From: Candidatus Izemoplasma sp.
GTDB taxonomy: Bacteria; Bacillota_I; Bacilli_A; Izemoplasmatales; Izemoplasmataceae
DNA length: 64,000 nucleotides
Assembly (NCBI GenBank): GCA_036172455.1
Contig: JAXKVY010000001.1
Span: 248,001 to 312,000, forward strand
Direction of reading: 5' to 3'
The notes below the pieces were generated by a model. It was not told the DNA's origin and searched no databases. It saw only the letters and a program-made list of their open reading frames with translations. Each line of letters begins with the position of its first letter. Position 1 is the stretch's first letter. Positions 12,107 through 59,831 of this stretch are shown piece by piece. A program made the translations under genes and the position numbers.

Positions 12107-13197
12107 TATTTTCTTGCCCCCATTCTAATTCTAGGATCAACAAGTCCGTAAGAGAGGTCAACGATCAATACTGCAAATAATGAAATAATTGTATAAAACG
12201 CAGTAAGACCTAATAATAAGTTATAATCGTAGTTATTTTTAACAAGTGCTTGTAAATACAATTTACCGGCTCCTGGAATACCATAAATTCGCTCAATAAT
12301 AACTGATCCACTTAATAATCCAACGAATGAGAAAATAATTCCTGGAACAAGTGGTACCATTGAGTTTCTCATCGCATGACGAATAACGGCTTGACGGCGA
12401 GTCAGCCCCTTTGTCCGCGCTAAGAGCAAGAATTCACTGGTAAGAACCTCCGTCAATTCAGCACGAGAAACACGTGTTAAACTTGCGACAGCTGCGAAAC
12501 TCAAACCAAATACTGGTAAGAACATACCCCAGAACTGAATAGCACCACCAAGGTCCGAAGATGGAAACTGAGCGGGGAACCACCCTAACTCATATCCAAA
12601 GAACATAACCAATAACGTCATGACAACGAAACTTGGAACGGAAATGAAAATCATAACCCCCAAAGAAATAATGTTGTCAATCAAAGAGTTTTTATTTAAT
12701 GCAGCTATTATACCTAATGCAAACCCTACAGGTATATAGAAGAAAAGTGAAATAATATTTAAGCGGATTGTAACTGGTAACCGTGTTTTTAATACATCAA
12801 ACACTGGTACATTAACTGCTACTCGAGTTGAGTAGCCCCAGTTCCAATCAGTAATAATGTTTTTGATCCATGTAAAAAATTGAGTGCTTAAAGGAATCGG
12901 TTTGTAAATACGATAGAATGTAGAATCTCCAATATCATCTACTTTTTCACAATACCATTCATTGTTAGCGCACTCCTCCCATTCACCGTTTTCAATTTCT
13001 GCTACCTCAAATGGGTCGTCAACAATAGTTGACGTCATGTAGCCATCATTTACTTGGCGTGTGAAATAAATGGTCCGTGCATCTTCTGTAGTTGGGGGAT
13101 ATTGTGGTGCCAACTTCAATATCGTGAAGTTTAAAGACAAAACAATAAAAATAACAATAAAGATAAACACAGATCTAATTAATATATATCTTCCCAT
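12106..13197 (-). CDS. oppB: Oligopeptide ABC permease OppB
   Basis: 363 residues; first membrane segment IFIVIFIVLSLNFTILKLAP, then an enlarged external loop (about 35-100) with a Cys pair in EECANNEWYC. The conserved permease core follows, with the EAA loop SRAELTEVLTSEFLLLARTKGLTRR and C-terminal LSYGLVDPRIRMG. The loop is ~45 residues longer than in typical OppB. It forms the translocation pore with OppC. A 300-base gap with a stem-loop separates it from oppA. Confidence 0.92.
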   Translation of the reverse strand: MGRYILIRSVFIFIVIFIVLSLNFTILKLAPQYPPTTEDARTIYFTRQVNDGYMTSTIVDDPFEVAEIENGEWEECANNEWYCEKVDDIGDSTFYRIYKPIPLSTQFFTWIKNIITDWNWGYSTRVAVNVPVFDVLKTRLPVTIRLNIISLFFYIPVGFALGIIAALNKNSLIDNIISLGVMIFISVPSFVVMTLLVMFFGYELGWFPAQFPSSDLGGAIQFWGMFLPVFGLSFAAVASLTRVSRAELTEVLTSEFLLLARTKGLTRRQAVIRHAMRNSMVPLVPGIIFSFVGLLSGSVIIERIYGIPGAGKLYLQALVKNNYDYNLLLGLTAFYTIISLFAVLIVDLSYGLVDPRIRMGARK

Positions 13198-54152: not shown

Positions 54153-54546
54153 GGACTCACTTACTTTCTTATCGATACTATGACATGCTCTTATAGTAGC
54201 GTTAATTTGGTATGAATAATTTTATCATAAAAAAGTGTCTTGTGCAATTTTTAATAGGACAAAGAAGCAATATCTGAGTATGTATTTTAACTACACTATG
54301 TGCTCATTAGTCTGATTTTTTGATATACTATCAATCAATATTTTTTAAGATCTATTTTATTAAATTGATAATTCACTTAGCGTATCCATATCAATACCAA
54401 TGGCGGATTTAAAACTGTTTGATTCATCTGTTAAATATTGTATATGACAGAATAGAATTGTAGAAATATGACGGAAAGAAATGTCGGTTCTACAATTCTA
54501 TTTTTTTGATATAATCGAATCAGTAAAATGATTGGAGGATATCAAA
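54153..54546. other. Region upstream of the IS21 element with long inverted repeat and promoter
   Basis: No gene. At 54452-54465 and 54488-54501 a perfect 14-bp inverted repeat, ATAGAATTGTAGAA / TTCTACAATTCTAT, is followed by T7, which would act as a plus-strand terminator ahead of the element. A TATAAT (54510-54515) lies 31 bases before the istA start. Near-repeats TGACAGAATAGAA and TGACGGAAAGAAA may be transposase-binding repeats of the left end. Confidence 0.5.
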
Positions 54547-55993
<1,447 letters not shown>

Positions 55994-56046
55994 TTTACCT
56001 ACATTTTTTACCGCTATATTTAAACAATTTTTAGTTGACTTTTACA

Positions 56047-56179
56047 TAAATATAATACGCCTGAAGAATATGAAAAAATCTCTAAATAAAGCCAAAAAAA
56101 GACCATCATTGCTGATGGTTTTTCTATTTGAATGGGTAAAATTCCCAAAATAAGTGTTGGAAATACCCTATACAGTCCA
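56047..56179 (+). mobile_element. IS3-family right-end remnant, copy 1 (direct repeat)
   Basis: 133 bases: the last 13 codons of an IS3-type OrfB (YNTPEEYEKISK then stop), a CCATCA/TGATGG hairpin with T5, and the element end CTATACAGTCCA. About 95% identical to 57679-57812, in the same orientation. The sequence left of TAAATATAATAC differs from copy 2, so the break point is there. Confidence 0.78.
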
Positions 56180-56280
56180 TTTTGTTTATTAAATAATTCT
56201 AAGAATTGATACTCATTTTCAAAAGCTTTGTTATATAAGCTTTCAAATTTATTACTACACAAAAGTTTATTGTCTTTATA

Positions 56281-56802
56281 CTAAAAAATTCCGTGTTGTA
56301 CATCAGAAACGAAATAGTAATCATATTCAATATCTGTAAATACATGAATCATATAGTTTTCTCCAATAATAAAATTAAAGATATTTTTATAAAACACTAC
56401 ATCAATTTTCTCATTTGTGTTTAAATCTTCAAAAGTATACATATTTGAATAAATAGAAAAATCTTTGATTTCTTCTAGCTTAAGGTATCTAAATTCACCT
56501 TTATCTGAGGCAAGCATACTTTCGAACGTTGGATAAAGTTCGATATGACTAAAGTTGTAATTAGTTACTATTCCATTATCATTTTCTATTGTTAAATTGA
56601 CTTGAATTATTTCAGGTTCAAGATTACTATCTACAGTTTTTTCAAAATCATTTTGCGTAGAAGTAATTTCAGGAACATTTATTGTGCTATTAGAATTATC
56701 TGCAAATTCCTGATTACTTTCGTTATTCAATTCTTCTTCAGGTATTGAATTGCACCCAACTAATAAAAATGATATAAAAAACAAAAATAATATCTTCTTC
56801 AT
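56281..56802 (-). CDS. Hypothetical lipoprotein in IS-flanked cargo
   Basis: 173 residues with lipobox LLVGCN, then a Ser/Asn/Glu-rich linker (~20-65) and a small beta-rich domain (~68-173; IIQVNLTIENDNGIVTNYNF). No family recognised. It starts 15 bases after the metalloprotease gene, so the two form an operon and may work together at the surface, for example as inhibitor, anchor or substrate. Start preceded by AAGGAGAAAA. Confidence 0.68.
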   Translation of the reverse strand: MKKILFLFFISFLLVGCNSIPEEELNNESNQEFADNSNSTINVPEITSTQNDFEKTVDSNLEPEIIQVNLTIENDNGIVTNYNFSHIELYPTFESMLASDKGEFRYLKLEEIKDFSIYSNMYTFEDLNTNEKIDVVFYKNIFNFIIGENYMIHVFTDIEYDYYFVSDVQHGIF

Positions 56803-56817
56803 AAATTTTCTCCTTCC

Positions 56818-57468
56818 TTATTGATAGGCTAGTTTAAGATGTGCAATATCGTTGTACTGCGGTTCTTCATATGCATTTTGTACATATGGGTACATTAGTT
56901 GATTAGTTGAAGTTGCATGTCCAAAGTATCCTAAAGCATGTCCCATTTCATGGCACGAAACCTCATTCCATTGACTTTCTGAAAAGTCGCTTGTTTGTGC
57001 TGAATTCATTCCGGAAGTATCCCATATTAAGAAAATTTGGCTGTAGGCCATTCTATAAATATATATTAGTTTATCGTCAAGGTTCATATAAGTATAATCA
57101 GGTATGGAATAGTGTGACATAAAAGTAACCCCCACAGCATAAGGATTTATTCCTAGTCCCGAAGCCTGACTTCTTGTAAAACACCCTAGCGATATATCTT
57201 CGTTAGAAGTAACTTCATTCATTGTAAAAGAAAAATTAGATTCCCATCTATAGATTGCATTATCAAAAGTGTTTTCAAAATCAGCTGAATCCATTCCGCA
57301 TGTGATATTTTGATACTCATAAGATATTGTCGACGAGTCAAAATATCCAACTTTGTTATCATCTGAATGCCAATATGGAGTAACTAAGTACGGATAAGCA
57401 TTAACTTCAATAAAACTGCTTGCAAAGAAAACACACATGAATGTAATAATAATTAATACTTTTCTCAA
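56818..57468 (-). CDS. Secreted matrixin-like (metzincin) zinc metalloprotease
   Basis: 216 residues from a TTG that follows GGGAGGTTATCTA; signal peptide VLIIITFMCVFFASSFIEVNA. The catalytic region is HEMGHALGYFGHA with a downstream Met-turn-like NQLMYPY, as in matrixins (M10). The third His is one residue later than in the standard HExxHxxGxxH motif. The upstream region has AIYRWESNFSF-like and SQASGLGINP segments seen in small bacterial matrixins. It lies between two IS3 ends with a lipoprotein gene, suggesting horizontal arrival. Confidence 0.75.
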   Translation of the reverse strand: MRKVLIIITFMCVFFASSFIEVNAYPYLVTPYWHSDDNKVGYFDSSTISYEYQNITCGMDSADFENTFDNAIYRWESNFSFTMNEVTSNEDISLGCFTRSQASGLGINPYAVGVTFMSHYSIPDYTYMNLDDKLIYIYRMAYSQIFLIWDTSGMNSAQTSDFSESQWNEVSCHEMGHALGYFGHATSTNQLMYPYVQNAYEEPQYNDIAHLKLAYQ

Positions 57469-57616
57469 TAGATAACCTCCCCTCCTATAATAAAATAAGA
57501 CCAACATACAACTATGTCAGTCTTGGTGTTAAATTCAAATTTAACATATCATACATCCTAAATTTTGTCAATACTAAAGAAGCAATATATTTCACATTTA
57601 AATTAGTGATGATTAA

Positions 57617-57812
57617 CTAGAAAAAGCTATTGACGAATACATTATCTTTTTTAACACACTTCGCCCACATGCATCTCTTAAATATAATACTCCTGAAGAA
57701 TATGAAAAAATCTCTAAATAAAGCCAAAAAAAATGCCATCATTGCTGATGGTTTTTCTATTAAAATGGGTATAATTCCCAAAATAAGTGTTGGAAATACC
57801 CTATACAGTCCA
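57617..57812 (+). mobile_element. IS3-family OrfB C-terminal fragment and right end, copy 2
   Basis: Positions 57617-57721 encode the end of an IS3-type transposase: EKAIDEYIIFFNTLRPHASL, then KYNTPEEYEKISK and TAA; an in-frame stop lies immediately upstream, so it is a relic. A CCATCA/TGATGG hairpin with T5 and the terminal CTATACAGTCCA follow. Bases 57679-57812 repeat 56047-56179. The element end abuts a hairpin AAAATCTGT / ACAGATTTT (57812-57838). Confidence 0.82.
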
Positions 57813-57842
57813 AAATCTGTCTTATCATAACAGATTTTTACT

Positions 57843-58432
57843 CTATTTCATAGCAACAAATATAATAGCAAAATCGGTTTCAAATTTATCAATTAATTTC
57901 ATCCCAGAGTTAATAATGTATTTTTCCGTCGCTATCGGATCATCTGGATAAATTTCAATAATCCTATTGCCATTATTTATTGTTGAACTTTGATTCTTAT
58001 CAATAGATAAAACAAATCTACCGTTTTCATTGATCAAATCATATATTTTTAATATAGCATCTTTTTTATTCTTAAAGTGCATGAATGTTAGAGATGAGTA
58101 AACAACATCATATTTTGATGTGAAATGGTATTTTAAAAAATCATCACAAATTAGAATAACATTTTCATAAGCGAGATTTTTTTAGCTCTTTCAATTGTTT
58201 TTTCAGAAAAATCAATTCCTGTAAAGCTCCTACAAAATGGTACAACATTTGTTGCAATTCGTCCCGTTCCTACGCCTACTTCTAAAACTGTTTTAGTCGG
58301 ATCTAATTTCATTGCGTTAAGAAAACTTTGACCATCCCACTTTTTTATGTGCTCTTTCATTTCTATAGAATCATAAAATGGATCATTATTTTCTTCTATC
58401 AACATATCACAATGTTTCATTATTTTACTCAT
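57843..58432 (-). pseudogene. Class I SAM-dependent methyltransferase, frameshifted
   Basis: Frame 1 starts MSKIMKHCDMLIEENNDPFY and holds SAM motif I, TVLEVGVGTGRIATNV, and FTGIDFSEKTIERAKK. It breaks at an A7 run (58177-58183); the other frame resumes with NLAYENVILICDDFLKYHF, YDVVYSSLTFMHFKNK and GRFVLSIDKNQ and ends at TAG 57843. One added A restores a ~196-residue protein with all methyltransferase motifs. Decay after IS activity and sequencing error are both possible. The substrate cannot be told. Confidence 0.78.
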
Positions 58433-58520
58433 ATTTAAATCTCCTTCTTCAAGGTTAACTGAGTTTATCTAATATACTCTATAAGAAAAACTGTTCAATT
58501 AAATGTAACCGATTCACATA

Positions 58521-58841
58521 TTATTTATCTAATTTATACAACAAGTCTGGTATATTTACTGTAGCAATGTCATAAATGATATTTAGTTTAATACCTTCGT
58601 ACTCATGTGATATCATATTTCTTAATCCAATGATACTTGGCCAATGAATAGAATTATAAAATTGTTTTGTCTCATTTGAAAGTTTCTTTGCTGTTTCACC
58701 GATTTGTTCTAGGTTTAATATAACTGCATCGACTTTCTCGTCGTTGTACTCAAAGTCTGTGAATGTATCGACTTCTTCCATATATCTGCCGATTTTCTTT
58801 GCATACTTAATGATACGATCAATATATGTCTTATCTTTCAT
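58521..58841 (-). CDS. hepT: HepT-like HEPN ribonuclease toxin (DUF86)
   Basis: 106 residues, all-helical HEPN domain. The RNase motif is R74-NMIS-H79 followed by E-Y81, giving Rx4HxY; in HepT/MntA systems this Tyr is the site modified by the antitoxin with AMP. The segment VDAVILNLEQIGETAKKLS is typical of DUF86. It overlaps the antitoxin gene by 11 bases, so translation is coupled. The toxin would cut RNA (tRNA in studied cases) when not modified. Confidence 0.9.
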   Translation of the reverse strand: MKDKTYIDRIIKYAKKIGRYMEEVDTFTDFEYNDEKVDAVILNLEQIGETAKKLSNETKQFYNSIHWPSIIGLRNMISHEYEGIKLNIIYDIATVNIPDLLYKLDK

Positions 58842-59325
58842 AAATCAGTACTCCTGTCTTATTAATTTCCTCATCTATTTTTGAATATTCTTGAATAGTT
58901 TTATTACTTAGCACTTCAACTTTCTTCTTCAATTTTCCTCTTAGTTGTTCAACAAATTCAAAATACTCTAAACCGTATAAATCAGACTCCATATATAGAT
59001 CAACATCACTATTTTGTGTAGCTTGACCTTTGACATATGATCCAAACAAATATACTTTTTCAATATCATAATTTTTAGCTATTTTACTTATATTTTCTTT
59101 TATTGTTAAGTATGACAAAACACCCGTGAATTCATCGATCTTAGCATATTCTTCCAATTTTACTCTTAGTAATCTATCCATAACTAAGTCAATTGTCCAC
59201 TCGCTGGGTTTCCTTACTTCTTGTTCCCAGTTTCTTAATGTTTTTACTGGTACGCCAGTTAATAATGAAACCTGCTCTTGTGTTAGTTCTAAATTGTCTC
59301 TTATTATTTTAATATTATTAGACAT
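58831..59325 (-). CDS. mntA: MntA-like nucleotidyltransferase antitoxin fused to an N-terminal HTH
   Basis: 164 residues from the ATG after TAGGTGGTG. Residues ~5-45 form an XRE-type HTH (LTQEQVSLLTGVPVKTLRNW), ~80-164 the minimal nucleotidyltransferase with GS-x10-DVD (95-109; LFGSYVKGQATQNSDVDLY). MntA proteins add AMP to the HepT tyrosine to neutralise it. Here the fused HTH can bind the palindromes in its own promoter, giving autoregulation that stand-alone MntA lacks. Antitoxin first, toxin second, overlapping. Confidence 0.88.
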   Translation of the reverse strand: MSNNIKIIRDNLELTQEQVSLLTGVPVKTLRNWEQEVRKPSEWTIDLVMDRLLRVKLEEYAKIDEFTGVLSYLTIKENISKIAKNYDIEKVYLFGSYVKGQATQNSDVDLYMESDLYGLEYFEFVEQLRGKLKKKVEVLSNKTIQEYSKIDEEINKTGVLIYER

Positions 59326-59347
59326 AGTATTCACCACCTACAGCATT

Positions 59348-59376
59348 ATTATATACCCCAATGGGGTATTTGTCAA
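59348..59376 (-). promoter_or_regulatory. mntA-hepT promoter with operator in the spacer
   Basis: Minus strand consensus promoter: -35 TTGACA (59371-59376), exactly 17 bases, -10 TATAAT (59348-59353). The spacer is filled by the palindrome described next. Predicted transcription start is ~15 bases before the ATG. Confidence 0.85.
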
Positions 59377-59400
59377 TGGATTTATACCCCATTGAGGTAT
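59353..59400. promoter_or_regulatory. Two palindromic operators of the mntA-hepT system
   Basis: ATACCCCAATGGGGTAT (59353-59369) and ATACCCCATTGAGGTAT (59384-59400). Their centres are 31 bases apart, about three helical turns, so two HTH dimers could bind on one face. The first blocks the -10/-35 spacer and the second lies just upstream of the -35. Confidence 0.8.
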
Positions 59401-59480
59401 AAAATAAAAGGCTCCCATTGATCAGAGTGTATGGTTTCTATACCATATCTCCAACTTTTGGAAGCAACTTCAAATTCAAA

Positions 59481-59831
59481 TGGTGGAGTTGAGGGGAGTT
59501 GAACCCCTGTCCAAAGTAGCCGACACTACAGTTTCTACATGTTTAGTTTGATGTAAGTTTTAATCTACCTCCAAGCATCAAACAACCAAGAAGCAGACGA
59601 GCCTTATTACGTTCAATAACGTTCTGAAGGCGGTAGAACGCTATTAGATCCTAGATCTCTGTACTCAACAATAACGCCCTAGGCGGCATCATGCTGAGCG
59701 CATGCTTATATTAAGCGTATGCTAATTGTGAATTATTGTTTCCGGTTATATTTAACCTAGTGTTTTTACAGCCACAACGCTGACATGCTTCTCTAGCTCT
59801 AAACTACCCTGTCGAATCCATAAACAACCCC
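59481..59831 (-). ncRNA. ssrA: Transfer-messenger RNA (tmRNA)
   Basis: 351 bases. The 5' end GGGGTTG pairs with CAACTCC before the encoded 3' ACCA; GGATTCGACAGGG and GACAGGGGTTCAACTCCCC are the conserved tRNA-like parts. The tag reading frame reads GNNNSQLAYA then TAA (with the charged Ala in front), ending in YA instead of the usual AA. It sits directly downstream of smpB, its protein partner, for rescue of stalled ribosomes. Resume codon GGA is inferred by comparison with Bacillus. Confidence 0.93.

Follow-up and report, generated by a model that had tools for sequence, protein, structure and literature searches.

In the 64,000-nt stretch of Candidatus Izemoplasma DNA analyzed here (the window), two direct repeats flank an operon for a metalloprotease and a lipoprotein. 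On balance, we favor the view that these repeats are separate relics of IS3-family elements, lying on a decayed cassette array, similar to a staphylococcal cassette chromosome (SCC), that is anchored at ssrA and has been struck by insertion sequences (ISs). Related wall-less bacteria show the same array layout behind their tRNA and tmRNA genes; there, co-oriented genes are separated by a common repeat, joints coincide with the 3' ends of tRNA or tmRNA genes, and recombinase genes stand beside some of the arrays.

Layout of the window behind ssrA

Read from the tmRNA gene, the window contains, in order, the tmRNA gene itself, an IS end 8 nt downstream of it, an MNT-HepT gene pair, the relic of a methyltransferase gene, and the M10 protease-lipoprotein operon. 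All genes from tmRNA through the lipoprotein point in one direction. The features of this region and of its left flank are as follows.

54361..54438, minus strand: remains of a two-domain sensor/HD-GYP gene that border the IS21 relic on the left, identical at 64/78 positions to a gene of the congener G001 (L036)
54439..56046, plus strand: IS21-family relic with istA and fused/deleted istB remains (Pfam PF22483 [Mu-transpos_C_2] and rve)
56047..56179, plus strand: left repeat, an IS3-family right end, cut at 56047 by the IS21 relic and abutting the lipoprotein 3' end
56281..56802, minus strand: lipoprotein gene, a 173-aa frame with an early stop relative to a 209-aa relative; the matching frame continues towards 56180
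56818..57507, minus strand: M10 (matrixin) metalloprotease, 229 aa (Pfam PF00413, E 2.8e-10; collagenase alignment)
57478..57576, minus strand: 5' region of the protease gene, 81% identical over 100 nt to G008, whose homology ends at 57576
57576..57812, plus strand: right repeat, an IS3 transposase gene end with the right end of the element
57816..57842, minus strand: weak likeness to a terminus, TTATGATAAGACA in gene sense, also a hairpin, directly 3' of the methyltransferase relic
57843..58432, minus strand: broken methyltransferase gene, in two frames
58470..58516, no strand assigned: element end interrupting the repeat behind HepT; contigs C4 and C7 of this genome also carry it (87%)
58517..59407, minus strand: MNT-HepT pair, a sharply bounded cassette (Pfam HepT-like and Polbeta; 92.4% identity over 891 nt, ungapped, in G040)
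59406..59483, minus strand: element A, an IS3-family left end whose distance to the tmRNA CCA is exactly 8 nt
59481..59831, minus strand: ssrA (tmRNA), presumed anchor of the array (Rfam RF00023, 174 bits; ARAGORN)

The adjacent MNT and HepT genes, as recognized by Pfam, constitute a predicted MNT-HepT toxin-antitoxin pair. The 3' edge of this cassette is where the array repeat starts in the relatives G040, G005, and G008, and the element end that cuts the repeat in the window (58470 to 58516) also cuts it in G005. Upstream of MNT, positions 59346 to 59407 form a near-perfect 24-nt inverted repeat with two TATACCCC..GGGGTAT palindromes, which is probably the MNT operator.

We interpret the DNA from 59481 leftwards to 56180 as a decayed array of small mobile cassettes running in the tmRNA direction, which would consist, in order, of element A with MNT-HepT, the methyltransferase relic, and the protease-lipoprotein pair. 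IS3-family elements would have inserted into cassette joints or close to them, all in the same orientation, and then decayed, leaving two co-oriented right ends around one cassette, and an IS21 element would have landed in the left IS3 scrap at a later step. No clear terminus of the kind that ends the cassettes of relatives was found in the window. The stretch at 57816 to 57842 is a single match at ≤2 mismatches, for which the chance expectation is ∼0.6 per 10 kb, and is thus no better than chance.

The flanking repeats, their insertion sequences, and the cargo

The direct repeats described in the earlier note proved real. They consist of two blocks in the same orientation, 56047-56100/57679-57732 (98% identity over 54 nt) and 56094-56179/57727-57812 (94% identity over 86 nt). 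Since a whole-genome search found them in exactly two places of the 1.69-Mb genome, with E-values of 1.7e-74 and 1.2e-54, chance is excluded. As had been claimed, both contain the last part of an IS3 transposase gene, a terminator hairpin, and an element end, and the right copy extends left to ∼57576, making it longer than the 133 bases originally assigned to it. The window holds the last codons of the transposase gene, and the assignment to the IS3 type comes from the nearest full gene: positions 57576 to 57763 share 87.8% identity with the closing stretch of an IS3 gene from genome G044, and this gene reaches 306 bits with the IS3-family transposase model, whose cut-off is 160. The element end ...TACAGTCCA was found in 11 places in 8 of the 90 genomes of the order (≤1 mismatch), compared with 1 place for the reversed pattern, and had no match in viral contigs. 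The view that these are decayed IS3 ends also held, both being right-end scraps that lack the left end. Upstream of intact genes in G058 and G044, no left inverted repeat matching the right end rose above shuffled DNA, and the left ends of this IS3 kind may have been lost.

The IS21 relic likewise proved real, and the earlier suggestion of an insertion hot spot was supported. The relic shows the hallmarks of the IS21 family, namely, IstA/IstB domains (with istB mostly deleted), inverted end repeats identical at 31/45 positions, and a short target duplication, the 7-bp TAAATAT at 54432 to 54438 and 56047 to 56053. On its left side, the match of the sensor relic to congener G001 stops at the exact base where the IS21 element starts. 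Rejoining the empty site without the IS21 element brings the sensor relic straight into the IS3 scrap, and the 14 nt before this joint also resemble the IS3 gene. It was probably through this short likeness that the left portion of the left scrap was deleted.

Between the repeats lie the predicted metalloprotease and lipoprotein genes. M10 proteases are marked by a matrixin domain with HExxHxxGxxH and a Met-turn; the predicted protease matches the Pfam domain, but its zinc-binding motif has one extra residue before the third histidine compared to collagenase. The lipoprotein is 86% identical to L019:11524-12153, and an alignment model reads through 1 stop. The distribution of both genes agrees with a horizontally acquired cargo. 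The protease matched 1 of the 90 genomes of the order, its own, with no relatives elsewhere among 61 and 90 genomes or in genome contigs, plasmids, and viral contigs. Strong lipoprotein matches were confined to 2 of the 395 genomes of the class, its own and G008 (439 and 454 bits), the six further matches being weak (≤23 bits). G008 (UBA3566) is the one other operon carrier among the 90 genomes. Its lipoprotein is intact (209 aa) and its protease gene has been cut down to short pieces and nearly deleted; the window shows the opposite state, an intact protease and a shortened lipoprotein frame. Therefore, different halves of the operon have been lost in the two genomes.

The earlier note had read the operon as cargo caught between two decayed IS copies. 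As a single unit, this corresponds to a composite transposon in which two direct IS3 copies captured the operon, moved it here, and decayed, and it fits the observation that the sole two genomic copies of the repeat lie 1.6 kb apart, co-oriented, around one operon. We nevertheless regard this origin as quite improbable. The left copy is cut by IS21 and the right copy ends within the transposase gene, at the point where the operon homology starts. The two outer IS ends and the single target duplication of a composite transposon were not found, the left flank having been replaced by the IS21 element; as both scraps lack a left end, there is no outer boundary or duplication to compare, and a composite transposon is not demonstrable. 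In G008, the operon is found at a different place, between two termini (11268 and 12387) and without the left scrap. An IS3 right end of the same kind lies upstream of it at 12581 to 12693. The right end at the lipoprotein side, however, is of another IS3 kind and is placed 9 bp farther outward, which makes separate hits the better reading of the two flanks. The bases common to the right scraps of the window and G008 are also present in G044 and are therefore ancestral; the two scraps may be orthologous or independent.

A relative with the cargo at the same place and no repeats, which the earlier note had named as evidence against capture, was not cleanly found, the cargo being absent from the three congeners compared and placed elsewhere in G008. 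Deletion of the cargo by recombination between the repeats, another earlier suggestion, is possible, and no instance was seen.

The positions of IS3 right ends may offer a different explanation for the paired scraps. We examined 10 such ends. Two of them follow the CCA of a tRNA-Ser gene at a distance of 2 nt (G056 and G058), and one follows a terminus at the same distance (G044); the right scrap of the window is 5 nt from the weak terminus-like stretch, and the remaining ends have no recognized neighbor. Small as these numbers are, they hint that IS3 elements prefer cassette joints, which would account for two co-oriented scraps around one cassette. The 16-bp IS3 right end was also seen on bodies without an IS3 gene (G058:C104 at 19408, 26844, and 34286; G042:C63), among which it cuts an istA gene once.

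Cassette arrays behind tRNA and tmRNA genes in relatives

In the array of G008, the co-oriented genes are set apart by a ∼105-bp repeat whose end is TAATGACAAGACA. This repeat sits 3' of the genes, with a terminator-like hairpin after it in several copies, has inner direct motifs, and has a sharp far edge of the TG...CA type. Several repeat bodies, located on the opposite strand to the genes, have the 13-bp edge TGTSTTGTCATTA in common. The G008 contig with the operon carries 7 exact termini, all on a single strand, and one more lies on another contig; the array (C52) and the tmRNA gene (C89) of this genome are on separate contigs. Whole-genome counts of the exact 13-mer on the two strands were 8:0 in G008, 4:1 in G040, 4:0 in G044, 3:0 in G038, 2:0 in G025, 0:4 in G059, 2:10 in OKU6, 2:12 in MO-XQ, 2:3 in the L145 genome, 0:1 in Acholeplasma equifetale, 2:0 in zrk7, 3:0 in a viral record, and 1:0 in the genome of the window, where the single copy lies within a gene on C5. 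The reversed pattern gave 0 to 1 match per genome and 1 in all. In MO-XQ, 12 of the 14 exact 13-mers lie on one strand within 37 kb (652224 to 689307). Evidence against the array reading comes from G011 and G031, in which, despite their belonging to the same family, the whole-genome count of exact termini was zero.

Gene orientation within the arrays is strongly biased as well. Open reading frames of at least 100 aa pointed one way versus the other in ratios of 46:5, 15:1, and 24:2 in three arrays, the G008 array having 15/16 in one direction. Blocks of gene plus repeat are common to different surroundings and break at the terminus. For a cation-transporter cassette, for example, identity amounts to 100% over 781 bp in G025 and to 99.95% over 2112 bp between G044 and L155, breaking off exactly at the terminus; identity of this degree between G044, G025, and L155 indicates recent transfer.

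The DNA beyond the termini points to tRNA and tmRNA genes. We compared up to 400 bp after each of 60 distinct termini with the assembled array and tRNA sequences. For 15/60 termini, a relative of the downstream DNA starts exactly at the 3' end of a tRNA or tmRNA gene, compared to 0/600 random controls; the anchors comprise tmRNA and the tRNAs for Ser, Cys, Gly, Ala, and Leu. The other 45/60 had no tRNA-anchored relative among the sequences compared. Within G008 itself, the 298 bp that follow one terminus match the sequence behind the tmRNA gene of this genome at 94% identity. The joints share only CA, with which both the CCA and the terminus end.

These observations suggest how the arrays may form. 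In relatives, such cassettes carry the ∼105-bp repeat directly behind the last gene, and the end of this repeat, TAATGACAASACA in gene sense, is the joint, whose partner is either the next cassette or the DNA flanking a tRNA or tmRNA gene. A large serine recombinase would probably join each cassette conservatively and site-specifically, in the manner of SCC elements, either to a tRNA or tmRNA 3' end or to an earlier cassette at its terminus. We infer that the recombinases act on the terminus and tRNA sites and that the window once carried the same repeats.

Candidates for such a recombinase were found beside some arrays. A large serine recombinase gene lies between tRNA-Cys and the array in G044, two lie in tandem beside a terminus in MO-XQ (L191:5487-8848; MO-XQ 1487486-1490847), and one is present in L145. 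In each of these cases, Resolvase, Recombinase, and Zn-ribbon domains are combined next to an array, as in SCC-like elements. Recombinase fragments were found near termini in MO-XQ and L149, and no serine recombinase was found in the window. The best NCBIfam matches are CcrB and CcrC, NCBIfam possibly lacking closer models, and the scores are far from those of Ccr equivalogs (84 to 162 bits for CcrB, compared with a cut-off of 900). It is conceivable, though we advance it tentatively, that these Mollicute relatives possess a cassette system of their own, with the 13-bp terminus TAATGACAASACA, paired serine recombinases, and integron-like arrays of up to ∼37 kb, whose cassettes join to tRNA or tmRNA ends or to each other without target duplication.

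Element A, the 78-bp sequence between MNT and the tmRNA gene, recurs in 22/90 genomes. Among 40 distinct copies, all 15 that are linked to a tRNA or tmRNA gene, that of the window included, lie exactly 8 nt from the CCA; of the remaining copies, 6 follow a terminus, 15 have a CA at the same distance, and 4 do not. It corresponds to the left end of an IS3-family IS that measures 1481 bp, and two copies of this IS (L048:2022-3502 and L069:1513-2992) are 99.66% identical and have imperfect end repeats, with a 3-bp duplication in L048 and none in L069. Most copies of element A, like that of the window, are followed by cargo in place of a transposase. AAA ATPases of the MRRVGKSYLL type are a recurrent first gene after element A (L048, L057, L047, and L086). 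A reading of the 8-nt spacer as a target duplication of the cassettes was not supported, because neighboring spacers differ within one array.

The ∼105-bp repeat could likewise be a miniature transposon or a transposon end, moved by an IS3- or IS21-type transposase that favors the 3' side of genes, in which case the arrays would be nested insertions in a tRNA-flank hot spot. The inner motifs and TG...CA-type edge of the repeat would suit such an origin, as would the IS identity of element A with its 3-bp duplication in L048. Some termini lie within genes (L147, G008 20615, and MO-XQ 656050), which is consistent with a transposon end as well as with a site-specific joint. We consider this origin rather unlikely, given that no terminus was found on the opposite strand within arrays beyond chance, that several bodies have one 13-bp terminus in common, and that at the junctions with tRNA-flank DNA the match runs from the first base, with no target duplication seen.

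A classical integron, with the repeats as attC sites and an integron integrase acting on them, would likewise yield cassettes of one gene each, co-oriented and each trailed by a repeat. This reading is largely refuted and, to us, highly improbable. In four folding tests, the repeat did not surpass shuffled DNA (z −0.11 to −0.35), and the integron integrase model exceeded its cut-off in 1/90 genomes, G076, where the repeat had no match. Weaker matches of this model (89/90 genomes and 14/14 controls) are ordinary tyrosine recombinases. The G076 integrase itself (G076:C174:2319-3263; 433 bits) may be real or a contamination, the genome being listed at 6% contamination.

Relation to known systems and significance

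SCC elements lie in tandem behind a single conserved gene, rlmH; some carry recombinase genes and others do not, and these encode large serine recombinases, ccrAB being a tandem pair. The arrays described here resemble them in the tandem placement of cassettes behind one gene, in the presence of recombinase genes in some cases and their absence in others, and in the large serine recombinases, including the tandem pair of MO-XQ, which is reminiscent of ccrAB. They differ from SCC in their anchor, which is a tRNA gene or ssrA instead of rlmH, in cassettes of ∼1 kb, and in recombinases far below the Ccr cut-offs. With integron arrays they share small co-oriented cassettes and a repeat 3' of the gene, but neither attC-like folding nor an integron integrase was found in array-bearing genomes.

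In tycheposons and other tRNA-anchored islands, tRNA 3' ends anchor cargo. The arrays have this use of tRNA 3' ends in common with them, but most cassettes here are without a recombinase and the joint shares only CA instead of a long repeat. Mobile insertion cassettes (MICs) are IS ends with cargo replacing the transposase. Element A, an IS left end mostly followed by cargo, is similar to MICs, but the right ends here do not match the IS right end, and the cassettes are arrayed at tRNA ends. The IS3 and IS21 elements belong to the known transposase families, of which the window holds relics only. Titles and abstract openings retrieved in a literature search included no paper on such arrays in this group.

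The cassette-array reading would account for an IS-repeat pattern that might otherwise be classed as a composite transposon. If it is true, these bacteria would exchange small genes through arrays behind tRNA and tmRNA genes, a role played elsewhere by integrons and SCC, and the exchanged genes would include toxin-antitoxin pairs, acetyltransferases, metal ATPases, ATPases, and proteases. It would also provide a simple sequence rule for spotting such cassettes, together with a testable pair of recombinase and site.
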